The notes beneath the pieces were generated by a model, which saw only the letters and a program-made list of their open reading frames with translations, was not told where the DNA came from and made no database searches. The translations under genes were made by a program, and so were the position numbers. This document shows positions 3,224 to 17,231 of a DNA stretch of 37,860 nucleotides, in pieces. Each line of letters begins with the position of its first letter. The first letter of the stretch is position 1. The stretch spans positions 1-37,860 of the forward strand of contig JAFQXY010000018.1 in NCBI GenBank assembly GCA_017406745.1. The letters run 5' to 3'. Origin of the DNA: Candidatus Saccharimonadota bacterium (lineage in GTDB: Bacteria > Patescibacteriota > Saccharimonadia > Saccharimonadales > Saccharimonadaceae).

Positions 3224-4059
3224 TGGCAATTAAAGCATATCGCCCAATTACTCCAGCGCAACGTCAAAAGACGACCGAAGATTACGATCAGATTACGACG
3301 AAGAAGCCGTTGAAGTCATTGTTGAAGGCGAAAAAACAACAGGCTGGTAAAAACAACCAAGGCCGAATTACAGTGCGCCACCGTGGTGGTGGGGTGAAGC
3401 GCCACTATAGGATTATGACTTACAATCTACCAAAGGGTTTAACTTTGACGGTAGAGGAAATTGAGTACGATCCAAATCGTAGTGCTAGGATTGCACGGGT
3501 AAAAGACCAAAACGGTGTTTATTACTATGTTTTGGCTGATACCAAGATGACTAAAGGTACTACTTTTAAGACTGGGGCTGAGGCAGAGGTGGAGGAATCC
3601 AACCGGATGCCATTAGAGAATATTCCAGTAGGTACGTTTGTGTACGCGATAGAATTAAAGCCCGGTAGAGGTGCACAGATGGTGCGTGCTGCAGGGGCAA
3701 GGGCACAGTTGATGGCAAAGGAAGATGGCTATGCCACCTTGAAGATGCCATCTGGTGAAATGCGTAAAGTATTAGTGAGTTGTGAGGCTTCTATTGGTAC
3801 AGTATCTAATATTCAGCATCAGAACGTAAAGATTGGCTCTGCTGGACGTCGTCGCCGTAAGGGTATTCGTCCAACAGTGCGTGGCGTAGTGATGAACGCA
3901 GTAGATCACCCACACGGTGGTGGTGACGGTGGTAGGCATGGTTCTGGTAAGGCACCACGTACACCATGGGGTCAGCTAACGCTTGGTTATCGTACGCGTC
4001 ATAATAAGCAAACTAATAAATATATCGTGCGCAGTCGTCACGAAGGAAAGAGGAAATAA
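3223..4059 (+). CDS. rplB: 50S ribosomal protein L2 (uL2)
   Basis: L2 supports subunit association and the peptidyl-transferase centre. Its 278 aa equal the family norm. The N-terminal RNA-binding domain carries [17 protein letters not shown] (about residues 47-63), and the C-terminal part has the invariant [20 protein letters not shown] loop. The ATG overlaps the rplW stop by one base and its own stop overlaps the rpsS start (TAATG). Confidence 0.98.
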
Positions 4060-6899: not shown

Positions 6900-7540
6900 T
6901 GGCGGAAAAGAAAACGGCTGCTAAGGCTACAGCAGAGTCTGCTAAGTCTACCAAGACCACCAAGACTCAGGCTAATGCTAAAGCACAACCACGCCTCAAA
7001 GCTCTCTATAATACAGAGCTAAAGGCGAAGCTCATGAAAGAGCTAGATATTAAAAATATCAACCAAGTGCCAGAGCTAGCCAAGGTGATTGTGTCATCTG
7101 GTGTAGGCAAAAAGCGCGAGGATAAGAAATTCGTAGAGACAGTAGAACTGACTTTGGCCAAGATTACGGGTCAGGCGCCAACTTCTAGATTGGCGAAGAA
7201 ATCTATCGCTACATTTAAGATTCGTAAAGGTATGGGTGCGCCAGTAGGCTATCTAGTAACTTTGCGCAATGACAAGATGTACGAATTTGTAGACCGCTTG
7301 ATCAATGTTGCGTTGCCACATGTACGTGATTTTCATGGTGTGCCACGTGGCTCATTTGATAAGCAAGGTAATTACAGCTTAGGGCTTAAAGAGCAAACTG
7401 TGTTCCCAGAAATTACTTTTGAGGACGCTTCGGTGTTGCACGGGCTAGAAGTAACGTTTATTATTAAAAATGGTTCAAAGGAAGGAAGCTTTAAATTGCT
7501 AGAATCTTTTGGGATGCCGTTTGAAAAGGAGGCAAAGTAG
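6899..7540 (+). CDS. rplE: 50S ribosomal protein L5 with N-terminal extension
   Basis: 5S rRNA-binding protein of the central protuberance. 213 aa against about 180. The first 33 residues are a Lys/Ala/Thr-rich extension, after which the normal start of L5 ([18 protein letters not shown]) begins. Core motifs: [46 protein letters not shown]-like [16 protein letters not shown], and [19 protein letters not shown]. Start supported by AAAGGAG and the one-base overlap with rplX. It is the only gene of the cluster with the extension at the N-terminus. Confidence 0.95.
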
Positions 7541-7826: not shown

Positions 7827-8228
7827 ATGTCATTACAATCTACTGATCAAATTGCTGACTTGATTACGCGTATTCGTAACGCTATTATGGTAGGCAAAAA
7901 TGAGATTCTCGTACCAACCTCCAAATTGAAAGTACAGGTGGCAGACGTGCTTGCTAAAAATGGTTATTTGGTAAGTTATGACGTGGTGGAGGGGAAACCA
8001 CGTGGGATGCTACACGTAGTGATAGCTGGTGAAGGCGAGAATGCCAAAATTAACGAGATTACTAAGGTTTCTAAGCCTGGGCGCCGTGTGTACGCTGGCG
8101 TAGAGGAATTGCCTACAGTAAAATCTGGGCGGGGAACATTGATTATTTCTACATCCAAAGGGTTGATGACTACGCGCGAGGCGCGAAAGAATCGCCTAGG
8201 TGGTGAAATACTAATCCGCGTGTGGTAA
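7827..8228 (+). CDS. rpsH: 30S ribosomal protein S8 (uS8)
   Basis: 16S rRNA central-domain protein; in E. coli the repressor of the spc operon. 133 aa, normal. Begins with DQIADLITRIRNAIMVGKNE and ends with the S8 signature STSKGLMTTREARKNRLGGE and VW. Shine-Dalgarno GGAGAAAGGAG. It is the last gene of this transcription unit: a strong terminator follows at once, although in standard spc operons rplF would come next. Confidence 0.97.
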   Translation: MSLQSTDQIADLITRIRNAIMVGKNEILVPTSKLKVQVADVLAKNGYLVSYDVVEGKPRGMLHVVIAGEGENAKINEITKVSKPGRRVYAGVEELPTVKSGRGTLIISTSKGLMTTREARKNRLGGEILIRVW

Positions 8229-8237
8229 TTTTAGAAA

Positions 8238-8270
8238 AATAACAGGGCTTTAAAACCCTGTTATTTTTTT
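8238..8270 (+). terminator. Intrinsic terminator interrupting the spc operon
   Basis: AATAACAGGG (8238-8247) pairs with CCCTGTTATT (8256-8265), followed by more T. It separates rpsH from the inserted surface cassette. Confidence 0.92.
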
Positions 8271-8338
8271 GTGGTTTTTAATAGTTTTGGCGGTGGTTTT
8301 ATGGTTTTTATAGTGGTTGTTTATTATTGTGGCTATGC

Positions 8339-8367
8339 TTGCATGGGAGTGGAGGATGCGATATAAT
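8339..8367 (+). promoter_or_regulatory. Promoter of the 485-aa surface protein
   Basis: TTGCAT (8339-8344), 17-bp spacer, TATAAT (8362-8367). Predicted start about 8374, leaving a leader of about 100 nt. Confidence 0.65.
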
Positions 8368-8412
8368 GAGGGCAAAATAAAGTATGGATAGGAAGCTTGG
8401 GTGGGTATCCAG

Positions 8413-8454
8413 GTTTATTTTGGGCTTTGGGGGGATAAGTCTCGAAGAATAAAC
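8413..8454 (+). other. Leader hairpin with G-rich apical loop
   Basis: GTTTATTTT (8413-8421) pairs with AGAATAAAC (8446-8454; one G-U), and GGCTT (8423-8427) with AAGTC (8437-8441), leaving a TGGGGGGAT loop. The Shine-Dalgarno GAGGAGGAG follows shortly after. It may be a cis-regulatory element; no known class recognised. Confidence 0.4.
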
Positions 8455-8474
8455 TAATAAGAGGAGGAGTATAA

Positions 8475-9932
8475 ATGGCTCAAAAAATATCAAAACTAAA
8501 AAAAGCTGGTTATGCGGCTGTGGCAATGGCGATGGCTTTGCCAGTGGCGACGTTTTTGCCAGCAGGAAGTGCATTTGCAGATGCGGGTTGCCCAGCTAGT
8601 ATGGCTGATTTAACGGAGGCTTTGAGTGGTACCGAGGCTACAATTTCGCTTTGTGGTGACATCACGCTCACAGATGCCCCAATAACCGTAAGTCGCAGTG
8701 TAACGCTTAATCTTGGTGGCTACTCAATTACGCGGGAAAGTGGGGATATATTTGCAATAAGTGGTCGTAATACTAGGTTAACGATTACTGGTGATGGGAA
8801 TGTGAATGGTTCTCTAGGCAATTCGAATAATATAAGGTTGCAGGGTGGTACTTATACTAGTTCAAGGGCGCAACAGTTGGCAGATTTTAGGAATGGCTAC
8901 ATGGCATATTCGGTGGACGGGGCTTATGTGGTAGATCAGATGATTTGGGGTATTAGCGTATCATCTCCAGCTGAATTCAATGAAGATGGGATTTTCCTTT
9001 ATGAAGGACAGACGGCTACAATTACGGCGGTTCTAAACCCTGAAACTTCTAAATCTGGTATAGTATTTGAATCTGATGACCCAGAAGTTGCCACGGTTAG
9101 TGAAGATGGTACAATTACCGCAGTAGCGGCCGGTACGACTTCTATCGTTGCTAGCGCAGAATATTCTCCACGGTTTATTCGCGCCACTATGCCAATTACG
9201 GTTTATGCCGTAAATCCAGCAACCGAGGGTGATGTGGCGGATACCAGTGCAGCTGATAGTTTGAAAGATTTGATCAGCGGAGCCTTAGATCCAGAGGCCG
9301 ATGAAGATCTTTATGATAGTTTGTACAAGTCTTTTGGTGGTGACGATGACTATGCCGAGGACACGATTGACTATTTGCAATGGGCTGTAGTGTATGAAGG
9401 TGGAATTGTGAAAACTGCAGTATATGTAGATCCGGCAGATGACTATTTGACCGATGAGGAAAAAGAGGCTATTATTGCGCAAATGGACGGCGATGTAGAC
9501 CCAGAGAATGTAAAATACTATGACGTGAACGTGGATATCGAAGATGAAGAGGGTGAAAGAATTGGTGGTATCCATGAGACAAATAAACCTATTAGAGTAA
9601 TTATTGCTCAGGTTGAAAAGCCAGATGATGGATATGCACGTAAATATTATGTAGTAGCTTACCATAATGACGAAGATCCAATACCGCTAACTGAAGGTGT
9701 TGATTGGGAAATTGATAAAGATGGTAACATTGTCTTGATTTCTAACAGATTCTCTATCTTTGCAGTGGGTTACGAAGATGTATTGGTACCAGTGGTAACC
9801 ACTCCTAATACTGGTGTGGCTACTGTTGAAGGTGATAGTGCAACTCAGAGTAGTATGAGTCTAGCTGTAGCGGCTGCTCTAGCTGCTGTTGTAGCGATGG
9901 TAGGTATAGCTAAGTTTGCGAAGCGTAAATAA
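8475..9932 (+). CDS. Secreted wall-anchor-type surface protein, Big_2 domain
   Basis: 485 aa. A signal peptide spans residues 1-35 (cleavage after AFA). Residues about 37-150 look like short beta-helix/pectate-lyase-type strands (TLNLGGYSITR, RLTITGDGNVNG). Residues about 175-246 match a bacterial Ig-like group 2 domain (YEGQTATITAVLNPE, SDDPEVATVSEDGTITAVAA). An acidic central part follows. The C-terminus has a sorting-signal layout: TPNTG at 443-447, a hydrophobic segment at about 463-480 and KRK. The motif is TPNTG rather than LPXTG. Ligand unknown; host or surface adhesion is inference. First gene of the cassette that splits the spc operon. Confidence 0.75.
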   Translation: MAQKISKLKKAGYAAVAMAMALPVATFLPAGSAFADAGCPASMADLTEALSGTEATISLCGDITLTDAPITVSRSVTLNLGGYSITRESGDIFAISGRNTRLTITGDGNVNGSLGNSNNIRLQGGTYTSSRAQQLADFRNGYMAYSVDGAYVVDQMIWGISVSSPAEFNEDGIFLYEGQTATITAVLNPETSKSGIVFESDDPEVATVSEDGTITAVAAGTTSIVASAEYSPRFIRATMPITVYAVNPATEGDVADTSAADSLKDLISGALDPEADEDLYDSLYKSFGGDDDYAEDTIDYLQWAVVYEGGIVKTAVYVDPADDYLTDEEKEAIIAQMDGDVDPENVKYYDVNVDIEDEEGERIGGIHETNKPIRVIIAQVEKPDDGYARKYYVVAYHNDEDPIPLTEGVDWEIDKDGNIVLISNRFSIFAVGYEDVLVPVVTTPNTGVATVEGDSATQSSMSLAVAAALAAVVAMVGIAKFAKRK

Positions 9933-9962
9933 CCACTGTTAGGGTGGACAATAGTGGTAATC

Positions 9963-9991
9963 TTGACAAAATAGCATAAGTGTGCTATAAT
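9963..9991 (+). promoter_or_regulatory. Perfect-consensus promoter upstream of the signal peptidase
   Basis: TTGACA (9963-9968), 17-bp spacer, TATAAT (9986-9991) with TGC before it. Predicted start about 9998, only a few bases before the hairpin at 10005. Confidence 0.75.
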
Positions 9992-10004
9992 GGAAAGATA
10001 GAGC

Positions 10005-10032
10005 AAAAATCCTCCAGAGATGGGGGATTTTT
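10005..10032 (+). terminator. Promoter-proximal terminator/attenuator hairpin
   Basis: AAAAATCCTCC (10005-10015) pairs with GGGGGATTTTT (10022-10032; one G-U), loop AGAGAT. RNA starting near 9998 would be about 35 nt long if terminated here, so this is either an attenuator for the signal peptidase gene or the end of a tiny RNA. Confidence 0.6.
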
Positions 10033-10151
10033 GGTGGGTTGATGATAAGACAGTGATAGATTGGCGAACATAAAAAGGTGGTATAAAAAAGGTGCCGTAA
10101 AGTAGTATTGTAAAACGGTGGAAAAGTTTAAAAATCTATTGAAAAATAAGC

Positions 10152-10180
10152 TTGTGCTAAAACGTAAAATGGACTATAAT
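10152..10180 (+). promoter_or_regulatory. Second promoter of the signal peptidase gene
   Basis: TTGTGC (10152-10157), 17-bp spacer, TATAAT (10175-10180). The ATG lies 10 nt after the -10 box, giving an almost leaderless mRNA; no Shine-Dalgarno is seen. Confidence 0.6.
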
Positions 10181-10190
10181 AAATATATAC

Positions 10191-10970
10191 ATGAGTGAGG
10201 GTGTGAGAAAAATAGATGTTATAATTCGCAGTGAGATTTATTATCCTACGGTATCTGTTGCGGGGGCAAAGAATGCTGAGATGATTACGCTAGCTGATGA
10301 TACGGCAGTAGACACAATTGAGGTGACTAGCGATGTAGCGGAGGTTAAAGTAGACGAAGCAAGATCTCGGGAGCCAGAGCAGAAAGAGCCGGTAGTATTA
10401 GTAGACGCAGTGAAGAAAATGAGTGAGGTCAAGCAGAGATCGCGTGGCTTGAGGGTGTGGGGCTCAAGGTTAGGAATGTTAGCGACAATAGCAGTGGCCG
10501 TGGTGGCGGTGACATTGGTAGGGTTGAAATTACTAGGTTTTAGAACTTTTACTGTGATGTCTGGTTCGATGGAGCCGAATTATCCGGTAGGGGCAATGAT
10601 CTATGTGCAGCCGGTAAATTATCAAGATTTAAAAATAGGTGACGTGATATCGTACGTAGCTAACGATGATAAAACAGTGGTGACACACAGAATTGTGGAG
10701 GTTAAGGTGGATGAAAATGATGCGAGCGTGTTGAGATTTAGGACAAAGGGTGATGCTAATGACGTGGCTGATTCCAATTTGGTGCATTATAAAAATGTAC
10801 TAGGCACACCAATTATTACTATACCGCTTATTGGCTATATCGCACATAATATCCAGCAACCGCCTGGTATATATATCGCACTAGTAGTGGGCACTCTCCT
10901 ACTGGCGTGGACGTTTTTGCCAGACACTCTGGAAGAAAGGAGGAAAACTGCGAGAAAAAATGTAGTATAA
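10191..10970 (+). CDS. sipW: SipW-type signal peptidase I (Ser/His, S26B)
   Basis: Membrane signal peptidase, 259 aa. The Ser box is TVMSGSMEP, with S126 catalytic, and the second box is VVTHRIVEV with H166 where ordinary bacterial enzymes have Lys. Ser/His is the signature of the archaeal/ER/SipW type, which in Bacillus matures TasA-family fibre proteins. GDVISYV and TKGDANDVAD are further family motifs. Transmembrane segments lie at about 95-116 and 226-245. Residues 1-85 form an unusual hydrophilic N-terminal extension. Two TasA-like genes follow at once, so they are the likely substrates. Activity is inferred from family and context. Confidence 0.88.
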   Translation: MSEGVRKIDVIIRSEIYYPTVSVAGAKNAEMITLADDTAVDTIEVTSDVAEVKVDEARSREPEQKEPVVLVDAVKKMSEVKQRSRGLRVWGSRLGMLATIAVAVVAVTLVGLKLLGFRTFTVMSGSMEPNYPVGAMIYVQPVNYQDLKIGDVISYVANDDKTVVTHRIVEVKVDENDASVLRFRTKGDANDVADSNLVHYKNVLGTPIITIPLIGYIAHNIQQPPGIYIALVVGTLLLAWTFLPDTLEERRKTARKNVV

Positions 10971-11011
10971 GCTATGAGAATATTAAAGTTAAAGGTAGAG
11001 AAAGGAGGTAA

Positions 11012-11704
11012 ATGTATCACAAGATTAGAATCACAGTGGTTTCGCTGGTGGTAGTAGTGACGTGTATGCTGAGTTCGGTTGCGACACTATCATACTTCAC
11101 AGATTCCGACATAAAAACGAATAGTTTTACAATCGGAAATGTATCAACGACGCTGGCGATTTATGATGATGTGACTGGTGAAGTTAAGCATGTATTTGAT
11201 GCTGATAGTCATGGGCCATTAGAGAGCAATGTAGAGAATATACCATTTTATCTGCAAGCTGAAAATACTGGCAATATACCGGTCTATCAAAGATTCCGCG
11301 TAGTGATTCCAATTACCTTAGCTGGCGTAGTGACGCTAAATCTACCAACGATGAACGAGGATTGCGTAATAGATACTACAGCTGAAGCTGGAAGTACATG
11401 TAGCAATGATGATTATACTGTGACTTATAAGCCGTCTGTAAATGTAGGCGATGTGCCGACATATGCAGAATACTATATTATAAGTAATAGTGTAATAGAT
11501 GCGAATGGGTTGACTAGTGAATGGCCAACAGAGGGAATTCGCACTGGCGAGATTCCTACCGATATAGCAGAGTCATTACCTACATGTGATGCAAATAATA
11601 GCAACAACTGTGTATTAGGAATTAAAGTTTATTCCGATGCGATTCAAACAACTGGGTTTGAGAATGCAATTACGGCATTCGCAAGCGTAGGGGAAACATA
11701 TTAA
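11012..11704 (+). CDS. TasA/camelysin-like fibre protein 1
   Basis: 230 aa. The N-terminus has a hydrophobic segment (residues 7-25), then ATLSYFTDSDIKTNSFTIGN, the SipW-dependent signal seen in TasA/camelysin proteins, with cleavage expected just before the YFTD region. The rest is beta-rich (ENTGNIPVYQRFRVVIPITL), has two Cys pairs (about residues 126/137 and 194/201) that could form disulfides, and ends with the family-like VYSDAIQTTGFENA. Shine-Dalgarno AAAGGAGG at 11001 is near-perfect. It follows the SipW-type peptidase by 41 bases. Probably a minor or accessory fibre subunit; polymerisation is inference. Confidence 0.8.
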   Translation: MYHKIRITVVSLVVVVTCMLSSVATLSYFTDSDIKTNSFTIGNVSTTLAIYDDVTGEVKHVFDADSHGPLESNVENIPFYLQAENTGNIPVYQRFRVVIPITLAGVVTLNLPTMNEDCVIDTTAEAGSTCSNDDYTVTYKPSVNVGDVPTYAEYYIISNSVIDANGLTSEWPTEGIRTGEIPTDIAESLPTCDANNSNNCVLGIKVYSDAIQTTGFENAITAFASVGETY

Positions 11705-11742
11705 ATTAGTTTAATATTAATTAATAATAAAAGGAGAAAAAA

Positions 11743-12735
11743 ATGAAAGTAAATAAAAAAGTAGTGCTATCTACAGCAACCGTACTAGGTGTAGCAGCGC
11801 TGGTAGCTGGTGGGACGATTGCGTACTTTACGGATAGTGATAGTAAAACAAACACATTTACGGTAGGCGATGTAGATATTACTCTATATGAATCGCAATT
11901 ACACCGTGAAAACTCTGGTATTCAAGGTACTGTAGGTGCATTGGCTTCTGACGCGAATTATTGTGATTATACACAGCAGTATCCCGGCGTAAATTATAAC
12001 CGTACTGGGGCTCAGTTGACCTCGATGCTTACTTATGATGGCATGCGTTATTGTACTCCTAATGCAGATGCTAATAATACCGATGGGATTTCGGCCGTAA
12101 CTAATGTTCACACGCGTACAGGCTTCAATAACGCAAATCGTACTTGGGGTTATTCTGACGAAACAATTATTGCTGATTCCGAAAATAACTTTGCTACATA
12201 TTTTAATGCTGAGGCTAATGCTGTGGTGCCTGGGCAGTGGATTCGTAAATTCTCCTATGTTCAAAACGATGGCGATAGCGATGCATTTGTGATGATTCGC
12301 TACATGGTTCCAGAAGATCTCGTGGATAAAGTCACCCTCAAGATTCCTGGTACTCCATATGAGGAAGACGAAGACGCTAATACTGATGGTGTTCAGCCAT
12401 ATTTCTATGCAGTGAATAAGGATGATACTACTGGTGCATATTCTGCATATGAATTAACAGCTAACGGTGTTGATGATTACGAGGGTTACACTGTAGATAT
12501 TGAAGATGAAACTACTCATACGACTACTACCTATAGAGTTTATGCAGCAGTCACTCGCCAAGCTTTGAAGGCAAACGAAATGACTTTCTGGAGCCCAATC
12601 AATGCTATCAATATTGCAAAGACTGCAACTGAGGCTGATTTCGCTGGTTACCAAAACTTTGGTGTTATTGTTGAGGCGGATGCTATCCAAGCCTTTACAT
12701 TTGCCGATGCAATTGAGGCTATCAATAACCTTTAA
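11743..12735 (+). CDS. TasA/camelysin-like fibre protein 2 (probable major subunit)
   Basis: 330 aa. Its start is strikingly TasA-like: a hydrophobic segment at about residues 7-25, then GGTIAYFTDSDSKTNTFTVG and DVDITLYE. The body contains the family's NDGDSDAFVMIRYMVPE strand region and the end has FGVIVEADAIQAFTFADAIE, matching the AEAIQ motif of TasA relatives. It is larger than TasA (about 260 aa) because of a Tyr/Asn-rich insert at about 60-150. AAAAGGAG precedes the ATG. A 34-bp perfect palindrome follows the stop, which could protect this message 3' end. Major-subunit status is inferred from position and palindrome. Confidence 0.82.
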   Translation: MKVNKKVVLSTATVLGVAALVAGGTIAYFTDSDSKTNTFTVGDVDITLYESQLHRENSGIQGTVGALASDANYCDYTQQYPGVNYNRTGAQLTSMLTYDGMRYCTPNADANNTDGISAVTNVHTRTGFNNANRTWGYSDETIIADSENNFATYFNAEANAVVPGQWIRKFSYVQNDGDSDAFVMIRYMVPEDLVDKVTLKIPGTPYEEDEDANTDGVQPYFYAVNKDDTTGAYSAYELTANGVDDYEGYTVDIEDETTHTTTTYRVYAAVTRQALKANEMTFWSPINAINIAKTATEADFAGYQNFGVIVEADAIQAFTFADAIEAINNL

Positions 12736-12753
12736 TAGCAGAAACAAAACGTT

Positions 12754-12787
12754 TAGACTAAGGAACTTTATAAAGTTCCTTAGTCTA
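12754..12787 (+). other. 34-bp perfect palindrome after the fibre gene
   Basis: Bases 12754-12770 are the exact reverse complement of 12771-12787. No T-run follows (GGGGG comes next), so it is not a standard terminator. In RNA it gives a 14-bp or longer stem, a candidate RNase barrier or processing site that would raise the upstream fibre message relative to the downstream gene. Confidence 0.75.
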
Positions 12788-12816
12788 GGGGGACTTAAGA
12801 AAGGAAAAGAAACGAG

Positions 12817-13482
12817 ATGACTAAAAGAAATGTATTTAGTGTAGTGATTTGTGGGGTGGCCTTGGTAGTTAGTGGTTTGGTTTCTGTTCCTGTCTTTGCG
12901 GAGGGGCCAGTGGATATTCGTATAGTGGAAATGGGAGATGATGGTGCAGGTAACTTGATTAGTGAGTGGCAAGATATTACGGGTGCAATGCCGGGCATGA
13001 CTTATAATGCGGTGCCGAGGATTCAGAATAATGGTGCTGTGGCAACGTCGGTGAAAATGTGCCTTGCAGAGTCTGGTATGGATGCTTTGGGAAATGTAAT
13101 TGAATTAGACAATGGAACTTTTGCAATTGAAATCAATGATGAATATTGGACGCTAGACACTGGGGAAGATAATAGTGGAGTGGTAAGTTCGCCAATTGAT
13201 GTTTGCTATAAGTATAATACGGAACTTACTGCTGGTGGCGTGACAGAGCCGTTGTTCTACGAGGTAAGTTTAAGTAGTGAGCTAGGCAACGAGCATAAAA
13301 ATGCAACATTTAACTTGCACCTTTATGCGGAGGCGGTGGGGGGTTTGCCGGAAAATCCAGATACTGGCGTAAATAATGTTTCATATTTTGACATTGTAAG
13401 TCCGGTTTTGTTTGCTACGGGTGGTATAATTTTGTTTGCTGTGGTGGCATATATGCTTCATAGCGTGCGTAGAAGAAAATGA
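12817..13482 (+). CDS. Anchored TasA-like surface protein
   Basis: 221 aa. Signal peptide residues 1-28 (VPVFA then EGPVD). The body resembles the TasA/camelysin fold: RIQNNGAVATSVKMCLAESG, FYEVSLSSELGNEHKNATFN and LHLYAEAV. Unlike the two preceding proteins it lacks the YFTD maturation motif and instead ends with a sorting-type signal: NPDTG at 180-184, a hydrophobic stretch at about 194-214 and RRRK. It therefore looks like a wall or membrane anchor for the fibre. Stop codon TGA, rare in this window. No sortase gene is in the window, so covalent anchoring is unproven. Confidence 0.72.
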   Translation: MTKRNVFSVVICGVALVVSGLVSVPVFAEGPVDIRIVEMGDDGAGNLISEWQDITGAMPGMTYNAVPRIQNNGAVATSVKMCLAESGMDALGNVIELDNGTFAIEINDEYWTLDTGEDNSGVVSSPIDVCYKYNTELTAGGVTEPLFYEVSLSSELGNEHKNATFNLHLYAEAVGGLPENPDTGVNNVSYFDIVSPVLFATGGIILFAVVAYMLHSVRRRK

Positions 13483-13576
13483 GGCAATATTTATTAAATC
13501 GTGACTGTTGAATTGTGATAAAATGCGGTTTTGTTGGAGTGATAGGTGAATAGTTGCAGATTGAGCTGGTTAATGC

Positions 13577-13605
13577 TTGCAATTAGGGGTGATTGGTGAT
13601 ATAAT
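13577..13605 (+). promoter_or_regulatory. Promoter of the rplF-rplO unit
   Basis: TTGCAA (13577-13582), 17-bp spacer, TATAAT (13600-13605) with TGA before it (extended -10). It lets the distal half of the spc operon be transcribed independently of the proximal half. Confidence 0.7.
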
Positions 13606-13634
13606 TAGTAGTAATATTAATTAAAGGAAAAGAT

Positions 13635-14171
13635 ATGAGTCGTATCGGAAAACAACCCATCGAGATTCCGGCGGGAGTGACAATTACGGTCGGCGAGAGT
13701 GAGATTACTGTCGCTGGGCCTAAGGGTCAGCTCATAGTGCCGGTGCAGCCAAAAACAAAGGTTGCGATAGATGGAAGCGTGGCTACTGTTACCCGTGAGG
13801 ATGACGAGCCAAAATCTCGGGCTTGGCATGGCTTACAACGTGCATTACTCAACAATGCTGTGGTAGGTGTAACCAAGGGCTACGAGAAAAAACTAGAAAT
13901 TAATGGTGTGGGTTTCCGCCTATCTGGTGGTGGCCAAGACATTGAAATGGCGTTAGGGTTTTCGCATCCTGTGAAATACCATGCTCCAGAGGGTGTCCAG
14001 CTTACTACCAATAAGATGGAGATTACGGTATCTGGTATAGACAAGCAAAAGGTTGGTCAGGTAGCGGCGGAAATTCGTAGCTTAAAGAAGCCAGAGCCAT
14101 ATAAGGGTAAAGGCATAAAGTATGTGGATGAAGTAATTATCCGCAAGGCTGGAAAGGCAGGTAAGAAGTAA
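13635..14171 (+). CDS. rplF: 50S ribosomal protein L6 (uL6)
   Basis: Protein at the factor-binding site of the 50S subunit. 178 aa, normal. Starts SRIGKQPIEIPAGVTITV; has the tandem L6 folds and ends with the signature RSLKKPEPYKGKGIKYVDE. Shine-Dalgarno AAAGGAAAAG. It should follow rpsH directly in a standard spc operon but is about 5.4 kb away, behind its own promoter. One-base overlap with rplR. Confidence 0.97.
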   Translation: MSRIGKQPIEIPAGVTITVGESEITVAGPKGQLIVPVQPKTKVAIDGSVATVTREDDEPKSRAWHGLQRALLNNAVVGVTKGYEKKLEINGVGFRLSGGGQDIEMALGFSHPVKYHAPEGVQLTTNKMEITVSGIDKQKVGQVAAEIRSLKKPEPYKGKGIKYVDEVIIRKAGKAGKK

Positions 14172-15683: not shown

Positions 15684-15710
15684 GTCTAGGATTGGGTCTA
15701 TCAAAATACG

Positions 15711-15737
15711 AAAATAGCTCCTTGAAGGGCTATTTTT
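15711..15737 (+). terminator. Terminator of the rplF-rplO unit
   Basis: AAAATAGCTC (15711-15720) pairs with GGGCTATTTT (15727-15736), a 10-bp stem with one G-U. The T-run runs straight into the extended -10 box of the next gene, a very tight terminator-promoter joint. Confidence 0.88.
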
Positions 15738-15738
15738 G

Positions 15739-15747
15739 TGTTATAAT
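15739..15747 (+). promoter_or_regulatory. Extended -10 box, leaderless FKBP mRNA
   Basis: TGT then TATAAT at 15742-15747, 6 nt before the ATG at 15754; no Shine-Dalgarno. Expected start at the A of ATG. Confidence 0.7.
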
Positions 15748-15753
15748 ATTTTT

Positions 15754-16482
15754 ATGGAAGAGAAGGAGCTAAAAACAAGTGTAGGTCAACGCATAGTAAT
15801 AGGTGGGATAGCAGTTTTGATGCTGGGGGCTACTATTATGGCTTATGCCGGTATAGTGGCTGGCGGTAGTGCAAGTAGTTCGACTGAGAGCGAGGGCATA
15901 GGTAATGAGAAGATGGCTGAGTACGAGAACGCTTACGCCGAAAAGTCTGAGGAGCTTGGCAAACTAACAGCAGATGATTTCAAGACTTTTTGGAGCTATC
16001 ACGACAAGATCAAGGCTTACAATGAAACTTCTGCCAACGAAGATGGCTTAAAGACAGAGGATTTATTAAAAGGTGATGGTAAGAAACTAGAGTCTGGTGA
16101 TAAAGATTATTTGGCATATTATGTAGGATGGTGTGCGGATGAATCAATTTTTGATTCATCGCTTGACGACGATGCTAACCCAACGGCGTTTGTGAGTGCA
16201 CTCGATCCATCGCAAGGTTTGATTGCGGGTTGGGAATCTGGTGTAGTGGGGATGCGGTTGGGTGGTGTGCGTATAATTACTGTTCCTAGCGAGTTGGCTT
16301 ATGGTGAAGATAGTGAGATTTGTGGTGGCACAAATAAACCTTTGAAATTTATGATTATGGCGGTGGCAAATGAAGATCCGCTAAAGACTTTAGCAAAAGA
16401 GGTATCTACGGCTTATATGAAATTATACTATGCATCTTACGGTATAGACTACGATGCTGAGTATGGTGGTAGTAGCGATTAG
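15754..16482 (+). CDS. Membrane-anchored FKBP-type peptidyl-prolyl isomerase
   Basis: 242 aa. The ATG at 15754 is chosen because it lies 6 nt after a -10 box and no ribosome site precedes it; a TTG at 15736 would sit upstream of the predicted start of transcription. One N-terminal membrane segment (about residues 14-37), a linker with low-complexity Ser, a helical charged region (about 50-100), then an FKBP fold at about 105-204: SALDPSQGLIAGWESGVVGM, GGVRIITVPSELAYGE and PLKFMIMAV. Probably a folding factor for exported proteins on the outer face of the membrane. Some active-site aromatics differ from classical FKBPs, so isomerase activity is uncertain. Confidence 0.85.
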   Translation: MEEKELKTSVGQRIVIGGIAVLMLGATIMAYAGIVAGGSASSSTESEGIGNEKMAEYENAYAEKSEELGKLTADDFKTFWSYHDKIKAYNETSANEDGLKTEDLLKGDGKKLESGDKDYLAYYVGWCADESIFDSSLDDDANPTAFVSALDPSQGLIAGWESGVVGMRLGGVRIITVPSELAYGEDSEICGGTNKPLKFMIMAVANEDPLKTLAKEVSTAYMKLYYASYGIDYDAEYGGSSD

Positions 16483-16592
16483 TAGACTTGGTTGACGTAG
16501 CTTAAAGATTGTGATGCGACACTATATTTTATAGGGATATCAAATAGTCGTAAAAAGATAACAAAAAGTACTTGATTTTTCAAAAATGGTTA

Positions 16593-16601
16593 TGCTATAA
16601 T
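16593..16601 (+). promoter_or_regulatory. Extended -10 box, leaderless mRNA of the 207-aa protein
   Basis: TGC then TATAAT at 16596-16601, 6 nt before ATG 16608; TTGATT 18 bp upstream may act as -35. Confidence 0.7.
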
Positions 16602-16607
16602 GGTGGT

Positions 16608-17231
16608 ATGAAGAAGGCAAATAAACACATAATAGCAATTTTGGGGATAGTCTTGGGTGGATTAGCTTTTGCTGGTGGAGCCAAGGCTAATGAGTCATAT
16701 CAAACAGGGGCGGAGGTGCAGTTTACATTTGCTCCCGAGATGTCTGTTGCATTAAAAGATGCTACCTGTACCAATAGTTTGACCGATGCTGCTTTTGAGA
16801 TAGATAGTTTGTCTCCTGGTAATTCTGGCGATAGCGATGCGATTTGCATAAGCGTTTCTACTAATAGTGCAAGTGGCTATCAGATTTTGGGTTCCGTCGG
16901 TACTTCTAGCAATGCCACTACGGCATTGGAGCATTCTAATGGTAGTTCTAGTTTGAGCTCTGTGGCTACGAGCTATAACTCAAGTACTCTGACTGCTGGG
17001 ACTTGGGGCTATACTACTAGCACAAATAATGGCACAAGCTATGGAAATTATTCTGGTTTGCCAGCTTATACGGCGGTTGATGCTGGTAAAGCTATTAGGA
17101 CTAATGATTCTGGCGTAGTGGGGACCGAGAATACTTTGATGAAAATCGGCGCTTATGCAACTACTGGCCAAGTGGCAGGTGATTATACCAATACGATAAA
17201 TTTGTATATTGTGCCTTATTCTGCTTCTTAA
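16608..17231 (+). CDS. Secreted beta-rich surface protein, unknown function
   Basis: 207 aa with a clear signal peptide (residues 1-27, GGAKA then NESYQ). The mature part is Ser/Thr/Gly-rich and beta-like (AICISVSTNSASGYQILGSV, IGAYATTGQVAGDYTNTINL) with two Cys, about 30 residues apart, and no C-terminal anchor. The layout resembles small secreted pilin- or WxL-like proteins, but I cannot assign a family. The start at 16608 is set by the -10 box 6 nt upstream; a frame-extended start at 16572 precedes the promoter. The partial protein at 37540 has a similar layout. Confidence 0.7.
   Translation: MKKANKHIIAILGIVLGGLAFAGGAKANESYQTGAEVQFTFAPEMSVALKDATCTNSLTDAAFEIDSLSPGNSGDSDAICISVSTNSASGYQILGSVGTSSNATTALEHSNGSSSLSSVATSYNSSTLTAGTWGYTTSTNNGTSYGNYSGLPAYTAVDAGKAIRTNDSGVVGTENTLMKIGAYATTGQVAGDYTNTINLYIVPYSAS

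Follow-up and report, generated by a model that had tools for sequence, protein, structure and literature searches.

A SipW-type signal peptidase, two proteins carrying its cognate signal and a wall-anchored TasA-like protein are encoded together between rpsH and rplF in a Saccharibacteria genome. On balance, and with moderate confidence, we favour the view that these genes form a self-contained, sortase-anchored TasA-like fibre operon situated inside an insulated cargo site of the genus. The two ribosomal protein genes are adjacent in nearly all bacterial spc operons, and a genus-wide insulated site for surface genes inside that operon is more surprising than the cassette that it holds here. 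A literature search, which covered few subscription journals, found no published description of TasA or SipW in Saccharibacteria, or of the rpsH-rplF junction.

The window analysed here is the whole stretch of 37,860 nt (contig JAFQXY010000018.1). All reading frames, motifs and the strong terminator after rpsH that the initial annotation had placed between rpsH and rplF were found where it had put them (Table 1). Chance open reading frames as an account of the cassette are ruled out by the family matches and by conservation. A search of Rfam gave zero matches within the window.

Table 1. Features of the rpsH-rplF interval in the window, and partial gene copies at the same junction in three other genomes.
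Feature	Position	Strand	Remarks
rpsH (S8)	7827..8228	+	PF00410 match 7845-8225; last gene, upstream half of split spc operon
Intrinsic terminator directly 3' of rpsH	8232..8271	+	16-bp stem and T run; -18.5 kcal/mol, z -4.85
P1, 485 aa, secreted, Big_2 Ig-like domain, TPNTG anchor	8475..9932	+	PF02368
Putative sigma-70-type promoter with TAGCA-N6-TGCTA inverted repeat in spacer	9963..9991	+	consensus matches 12/12; pattern search
Hairpin and T run, probable P1 terminator	10004..10033	+	-19.2 kcal/mol, z -4.76
Putative sipW operon promoter, TTGTGC-17-TATAAT	10152..10180	+	same form ahead of sipW in several relatives
SipW-type (Ser/His, ER/archaeal-type) signal peptidase	10191..10970	+	TIGR02228, 98 bits
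P3, SipW-signal TasA-like subunit, LSYFTD	11012..11704	+	TIGR04088, 27.1 bits; homologous to P4
P4, SipW-signal TasA/camelysin-like, AYFTD, probable major subunit	11743..12735	+	TIGR04088; PF12389; predicted beta sandwich
Intercistronic hairpin, gap between P4 and anchor gene	12754..12787	+	z -6.4; place and shape conserved, sequence not
P5, TasA-like domain, ordinary signal peptide, NPDTG anchor, probable fibre base	12817..13482	+	profile match; beta-sandwich model
Putative promoter of rplF and downstream spc half, TTGCAA-17-TATAAT, extended -10	13577..13605	+	sequence pattern
rplF (L6)	13635..14171	+	PF00347 match; first gene, downstream half of split spc operon
rpsH 3' end and its copy, G018	L003:1876-2139 and 3452-3715		copy from S-T-S-K-G codons; cargo between
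rpsH 3' end and its copy, G150	L002:1772-1855 and 7206-7289		copy from S-T-S-K-G codons; cargo between
Truncated rplF 5' end copy, G071	L044:970-1035		start and ~22 codons, just upstream of intact rplF

The rpsH-rplF junction in the genus

The adjacency of rpsH and rplF, from which the initial annotation set out, is true of bacteria generally but does not describe this genus. We compared rpsH-rplF spacing across Saccharibacteria by S8-L6 distances, in 151 genomes of the family and 118 of the genus. Of the 71 genus genomes in which a single contig carries both genes, 61 have an interrupted junction, as have at least 38 genomes of the wider family. The interval in interrupted genus genomes measures 0.8-55 kb; the 55-kb case, the largest seen, may be a rearrangement. 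Neighbouring spc junctions, by contrast, are intact in every locus read (0/12 to 0/45 interrupted). Among 40 genus islands read for content, the cargo includes genes for capsule and exopolysaccharide (Wzz, CpsB/CapC, LytR-CpsA-Psr, glycosyltransferases), and about half of the islands encode large PxTG-anchored proteins. The split had been taken as an event specific to the cassette; instead it is genus-wide and holds many different cargoes, and the junction reads as a cargo site for varying cell-surface genes in most of the genus.

Some intervals hold genes of other kinds. Look-alikes of arginine deiminase, ornithine carbamoyltransferase and an antiporter, named by eye, lie in three of them (L166, L167, L179). 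In four genus genomes (L159, L161, L162, L164) the interval contains two genes of 1131-1289 aa that resemble rpoB and rpoC, which suggests that the ribosomal superoperon has been rearranged there. In the window itself, rplO is followed at 15684-17231 by two small exported proteins and not by secY, so the end of the spc operon also departs from the usual order; the one of these proteins that was tested has no Pfam match.

The boundaries of the site show a recurrent pattern. In 39 of the 40 genus islands an intrinsic terminator follows rpsH within 130 nt (11% of random windows), and in 39 of 40 rplF is preceded within 95 nt by an extended -10 promoter (2.1% of random windows). The latter keeps a near-constant distance of about 30-47 nt to rplF under unrelated cargoes, which suggests that the promoter belongs to rplF. 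Taken together, these patterns make the spc operon of the genus look like two transcription units flanking an insulated cargo site: transcription would end at the terminator behind rpsH and restart at the promoter before rplF, leaving a neutral space in which genes could be exchanged without harm.

The opposite order of events is a tentative but serious alternative. Here insertion came first, each island bringing its own terminator and promoter, and no older division of transcription made room for the cargo. A convincing rplF promoter is missing from twelve compact junctions in the wider family, and two of the nine empty junctions in the genus lack the promoter too; those empty genus junctions that do bear the promoter could be sites that have lost an island. 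We also dropped the idea that the whole family inherited the promoter from its ancestor, as these compact family junctions show none. Nevertheless, of the nine empty junctions in the genus at least six have the promoter where there is no island, and promoters brought in separately with each island are hard to reconcile with the spacing described above. Within the genus, either the promoter or the first insertion may have come first.

The SipW operon and its products

The family profile supports the initial assignment of a SipW-type peptidase, exceeding the TIGR02228 cut-off of 51.85 bits, and S126 (SGSM), H166 (VTHR), D188 and D194 are invariant in an alignment across 15 relatives. With a profile score over cut-off, the SxSM serine and a catalytic His replacing Lys, the protein is a Ser/His signal peptidase I; against the Bacillus-specific equivalog NF046067 it scores 102.8 bits, below the cut-off of 190. 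The maturation signals reported for P3 and P4 are also borne out: TIGR04088, the profile of the cognate SipW signal (curated cut-off 19 bits), detects both, P4 with 36.4 bits. A search of this genome, which is 85% complete, found no SipW-type signals besides these two, and both lie beside the SipW gene, as expected of SipW-dependent substrates. P3 and P4 are homologous to each other (hhalign 99.2%, E 5e-20).

P5 carries a signal of the ordinary type, unlike P3 and P4, although profile comparison places it in the same broad group. Its TasA-like character, noted from the sequence at the outset, is supported by profile comparison, in which it matches TasA/CalY-type proteins of Bacillus (E 6e-11). 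The anchors proposed for P1 and P5 are likewise present, each motif standing ahead of a hydrophobic stretch that leads into a positive tail, and a profile search finds two sortases over cut-off in the same genome; both proteins thus have the sequence features expected of the sortase-anchored class. The PDTG/PNTG motif is conserved among relatives of P5. In some operons P5 is replaced by two genes, one for a TasA-like protein with a SipW signal and one for a separate PDTG-anchored partner, which points to a fission or fusion event and connects the TasA-like part with the wall.

A SipW-type gene occurs in 21 of the 118 genus genomes, and we read the gene order around it in 16 of these and in G062. 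The order SipW, P3, P4 and a TasA-like protein, either the anchored P5 type or the split form, recurs in at least 12 other genus genomes. This upholds the link between peptidase and substrates that had been proposed from the window, and since the operon recurs at several unrelated loci, peptidase and substrates appear to travel together. Only in the window, G062 and G200 does it lie within the rpsH-rplF interval (3/21 SipW-bearing genomes). In the remaining 18 the operon, or another SipW locus, lies outside, which indicates that the position between rpsH and rplF is unnecessary for its function. L061 (G205), L067 (G165) and L064 (G219) represent another kind of SipW-type locus, in which the peptidase is accompanied by other exported proteins.

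The Saccharibacteria sequences make up a single clade (100/96) in a SipW tree; this clade groups with gut Clostridia (97/94), away from Bacillus. The nearest relatives in the named collection are other Saccharibacteria, many of them from ruminant gut (goat, sheep, roe deer), followed by gut Clostridia. Both observations fit a transfer between gut Clostridia and Saccharibacteria, in either direction, and our best reading of the sequences is that the putative fibre is nearest to the TasA/camelysin-like fibres of gut Clostridia.

The view of five genes as one cassette stands only in part. The sipW-P3-P4-P5 operon is a real unit, but P1 is separate: it has its own 3' hairpin, and sipW is immediately preceded by a promoter of its own, with a CTTGYGYT...TATAAT of the same form at this place in several related operons. 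A single transcription unit of all five genes therefore seems unlikely. The 485-aa P1 does contain the Ig-like domain ascribed to it (Big_2, 33 bits, cut-off 22.8). Its proposed role as the adhesin of the fibre system is not supported, however, since among the SipW loci read only G200 has a relative of P1 at the same place, and its C-terminal part resembles several giant anchored proteins from other islands. We therefore count P1 among the genus's variable adhesins and not as a part of the fibre operon. We also note that at 9963-10033 a perfect TTGACA-17-TATAAT promoter runs straight into the terminator-like hairpin, which would give an RNA of only ~40 nt; the hairpin assigned to P1 could instead end this very short RNA.

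Within the operon, a hairpin separates P4 from the anchor gene. It was seen in all 11 anchored-P5 operons read and in G062, that is in 12 operons, each time with a different sequence (z -2.8 to -7.1 in ten of them), while the SipW-P3 and P3-P4 gaps have essentially no hairpin; apart from G062, the five operons of the split form are without it. In C. perfringens sipW-bsaA, a terminator behind the subunit gene gives rise to short and read-through messages (PMC7395162). As that terminator yields two messages, control of the ratio of subunit to anchor is the natural reading of the hairpin here, which may thus set the relative amounts of the two messages and would keep that of the subunit above that of the anchor. 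The hairpin carries no T run and may therefore protect messages instead of ending them.

Structure prediction against TasA, proposed as a check in the initial annotation, gave a mixed answer. The AlphaFold models of P4 (pLDDT 74) and P5 (pLDDT 81) are beta sandwiches, and Foldseek lists the TasA fibre 8aur at rank 3 for P4 (E 0.014), but this match is below significance, as is that of P5 to the same entry (rank 38, prob 0.90, TM 0.38), and a TasA fold is not established by them. Other beta sandwiches score as high as TasA; the bundling pilus of the archaeon Pyrobaculum (7ueg) ranks sixth for P4, not significantly, and VIA-align picks out assorted beta sandwiches with no more than middling Z values (best 6.3 and 7.0). 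In the monomer model of P4, residues 22-39, the N-terminal arm, are unfolded, and residues 75-93 and their vicinity are poorly modelled. In TasA the N-terminal arm is the donor strand (PMC9674648). By sequence, P4 matches camelysin (Peptidase_M73, PF12389; 32.2 bits, cut-off 22.5) over residues 3-50 only, and scores 18 bits against the TasA equivalog NF046066 (cut-off 450). A profile score of E 8e-24 between P4 and Bacillus proteins was discarded, because the alignment itself held Bacillus rows; with those rows removed, the match covers the first 51 residues only, mainly the signal. A sequence-profile search of the PDB gave no match for P3 or P4 and no meaningful match for P5. The models thus suggest a TasA-type fold for P4 and P5, and given the unfolded arm of P4 together with the lack of a significant structural match, we regard this fold as likely rather than proven.

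Based on these data, we suggest the following course of assembly. SipW would act in the membrane, cutting the special signal peptides from P3 and P4. The N-terminal arms freed in this way would let the beta-sandwich subunits join head to tail, through the kind of donor-strand exchange known from TasA. One of the two genomic sortases would link P5 to the wall through its PDTG anchor, where it could act as base or starter of the fibre, and the fibre might then serve in contact with a host or a matrix. Of what the initial annotation called a complete surface-fibre system, the linkage of SipW, its two putative substrates and the anchored TasA-like P5 is supported, but not P1 as its adhesin.

It is also conceivable, if rather unlikely, that the SipW substrates are processed but do not polymerise, for instance as camelysin-like matrix or coat proteins bound to anchored P5. 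The camelysin family shares the signal, as the PF12389 match of P4 illustrates, the fold match to TasA is weak, and the poorly modelled stretch of P4 is not required in TasA. However, three TasA-like proteins per operon, one of them anchored, and a hairpin at the boundary of subunit and anchor fit a filament better, and the studied SipW operons of B. subtilis, B. cereus and C. perfringens all make filaments (PMC9674648, PMC13082335, PMC7395162). We therefore keep to an anchored fibre as the probable product.

Proposed exchange of cargo at the junction

Saccharibacteria are naturally competent (PMC10633639). The rpsH and rplF genes are well conserved across species, and we propose that they thus act as homology arms in natural transformation; homologous recombination through these conserved flanks is a plausible and, in our view, the most economical hypothesis for how cargo is exchanged, with modest support. 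In its full form, this model holds that the spc operon of the genus is split in two units, that the gap between them is a main site for surface-gene cassettes, that competence drives the exchange of capsule, adhesin and fibre genes across the two arms, and that the partial copies of rpsH and rplF (Table 1) are scars of such events. We put it forward as a possibility which may well prove wrong in one or more of its parts.

A mobile element integrated by a site-specific recombinase at the rpsH 3' end, as many elements are at tRNA genes, might seem to be indicated by the second rpsH ends downstream in G018 (264 bp, 97%) and G150 (84 bp, 87%), which start at nearly the same codon, but we disfavour this explanation as very improbable: no tyrosine integrase was found in any interval (PF00589, which covers tyrosine and not serine recombinases, has matches in 43 of the 48 genomes searched and zero inside the rpsH-rplF interval), clear rpsH duplications occur in these two genomes only among roughly 260 searched, the G018 repeat extends into non-coding sequence, and the duplicated rplF 5' end in G071 is left unexplained by an att site in rpsH. 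Apparent rpsH tails in G217 and G218 lie where contigs end and were discarded; the remaining partial S8 matches were likewise contig ends, or weak hits attributable to chance.

Other bacteria serve Saccharibacteria as a surface to live on, and to our knowledge little is known of their means of attachment beyond type IV pili. A predictable site that holds capsule, adhesin and fibre modules is a place to seek factors of host choice and of changes in the cell coat. For genetic work in these naturally competent bacteria (PMC10633639), the junction is also a candidate neutral site. More generally, it would mean that one of the most conserved bacterial operons tolerates a split, with a terminator-promoter pair as insulation, and can serve as a site for cargo.

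Relation to known systems

The pneumococcal cps locus is a variable capsule locus between the fixed genes dexB and aliA. The rpsH-rplF junction resembles it in its conserved flanks, its swapped surface cargo and its occurrence in naturally competent bacteria; unlike cps, it is flanked by ribosomal protein genes in an essential operon.

With B. subtilis tapA-sipW-tasA, the operon described here shares a SipW-type peptidase beside TasA-like AYF[ST]D substrates and an accessory protein as probable base, and in one relative from the genus, G062, it adjoins exopolysaccharide genes as in B. subtilis. It differs in that the base would be a PDTG-anchored TasA-like protein and not TapA, that the subunits are only distantly related, that a conserved hairpin precedes the anchor gene, and that its SipW groups with gut Clostridia.

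The C. perfringens sipW-bsaABCRSD operon similarly begins with sipW and encodes several secreted proteins, and the terminator predicted behind its subunit gene, with two message lengths, can be likened to the hairpin found here (PMC7395162). In contrast to the anchored P5, BsaA lacks an LPXTG-like motif, the sortase encoded nearby is not needed, and the C. perfringens operon contains a two-component system (PMC7395162), whereas the operon here has none. In B. cereus TasA-CalY-CapP, two related filament subunits are combined with a third protein at the wall, an arrangement much like that suggested for P3, P4 and P5; the B. cereus system is, however, explicitly sortase-independent (PMC13082335), while the fibre proposed here would be tied to the wall by a sortase.
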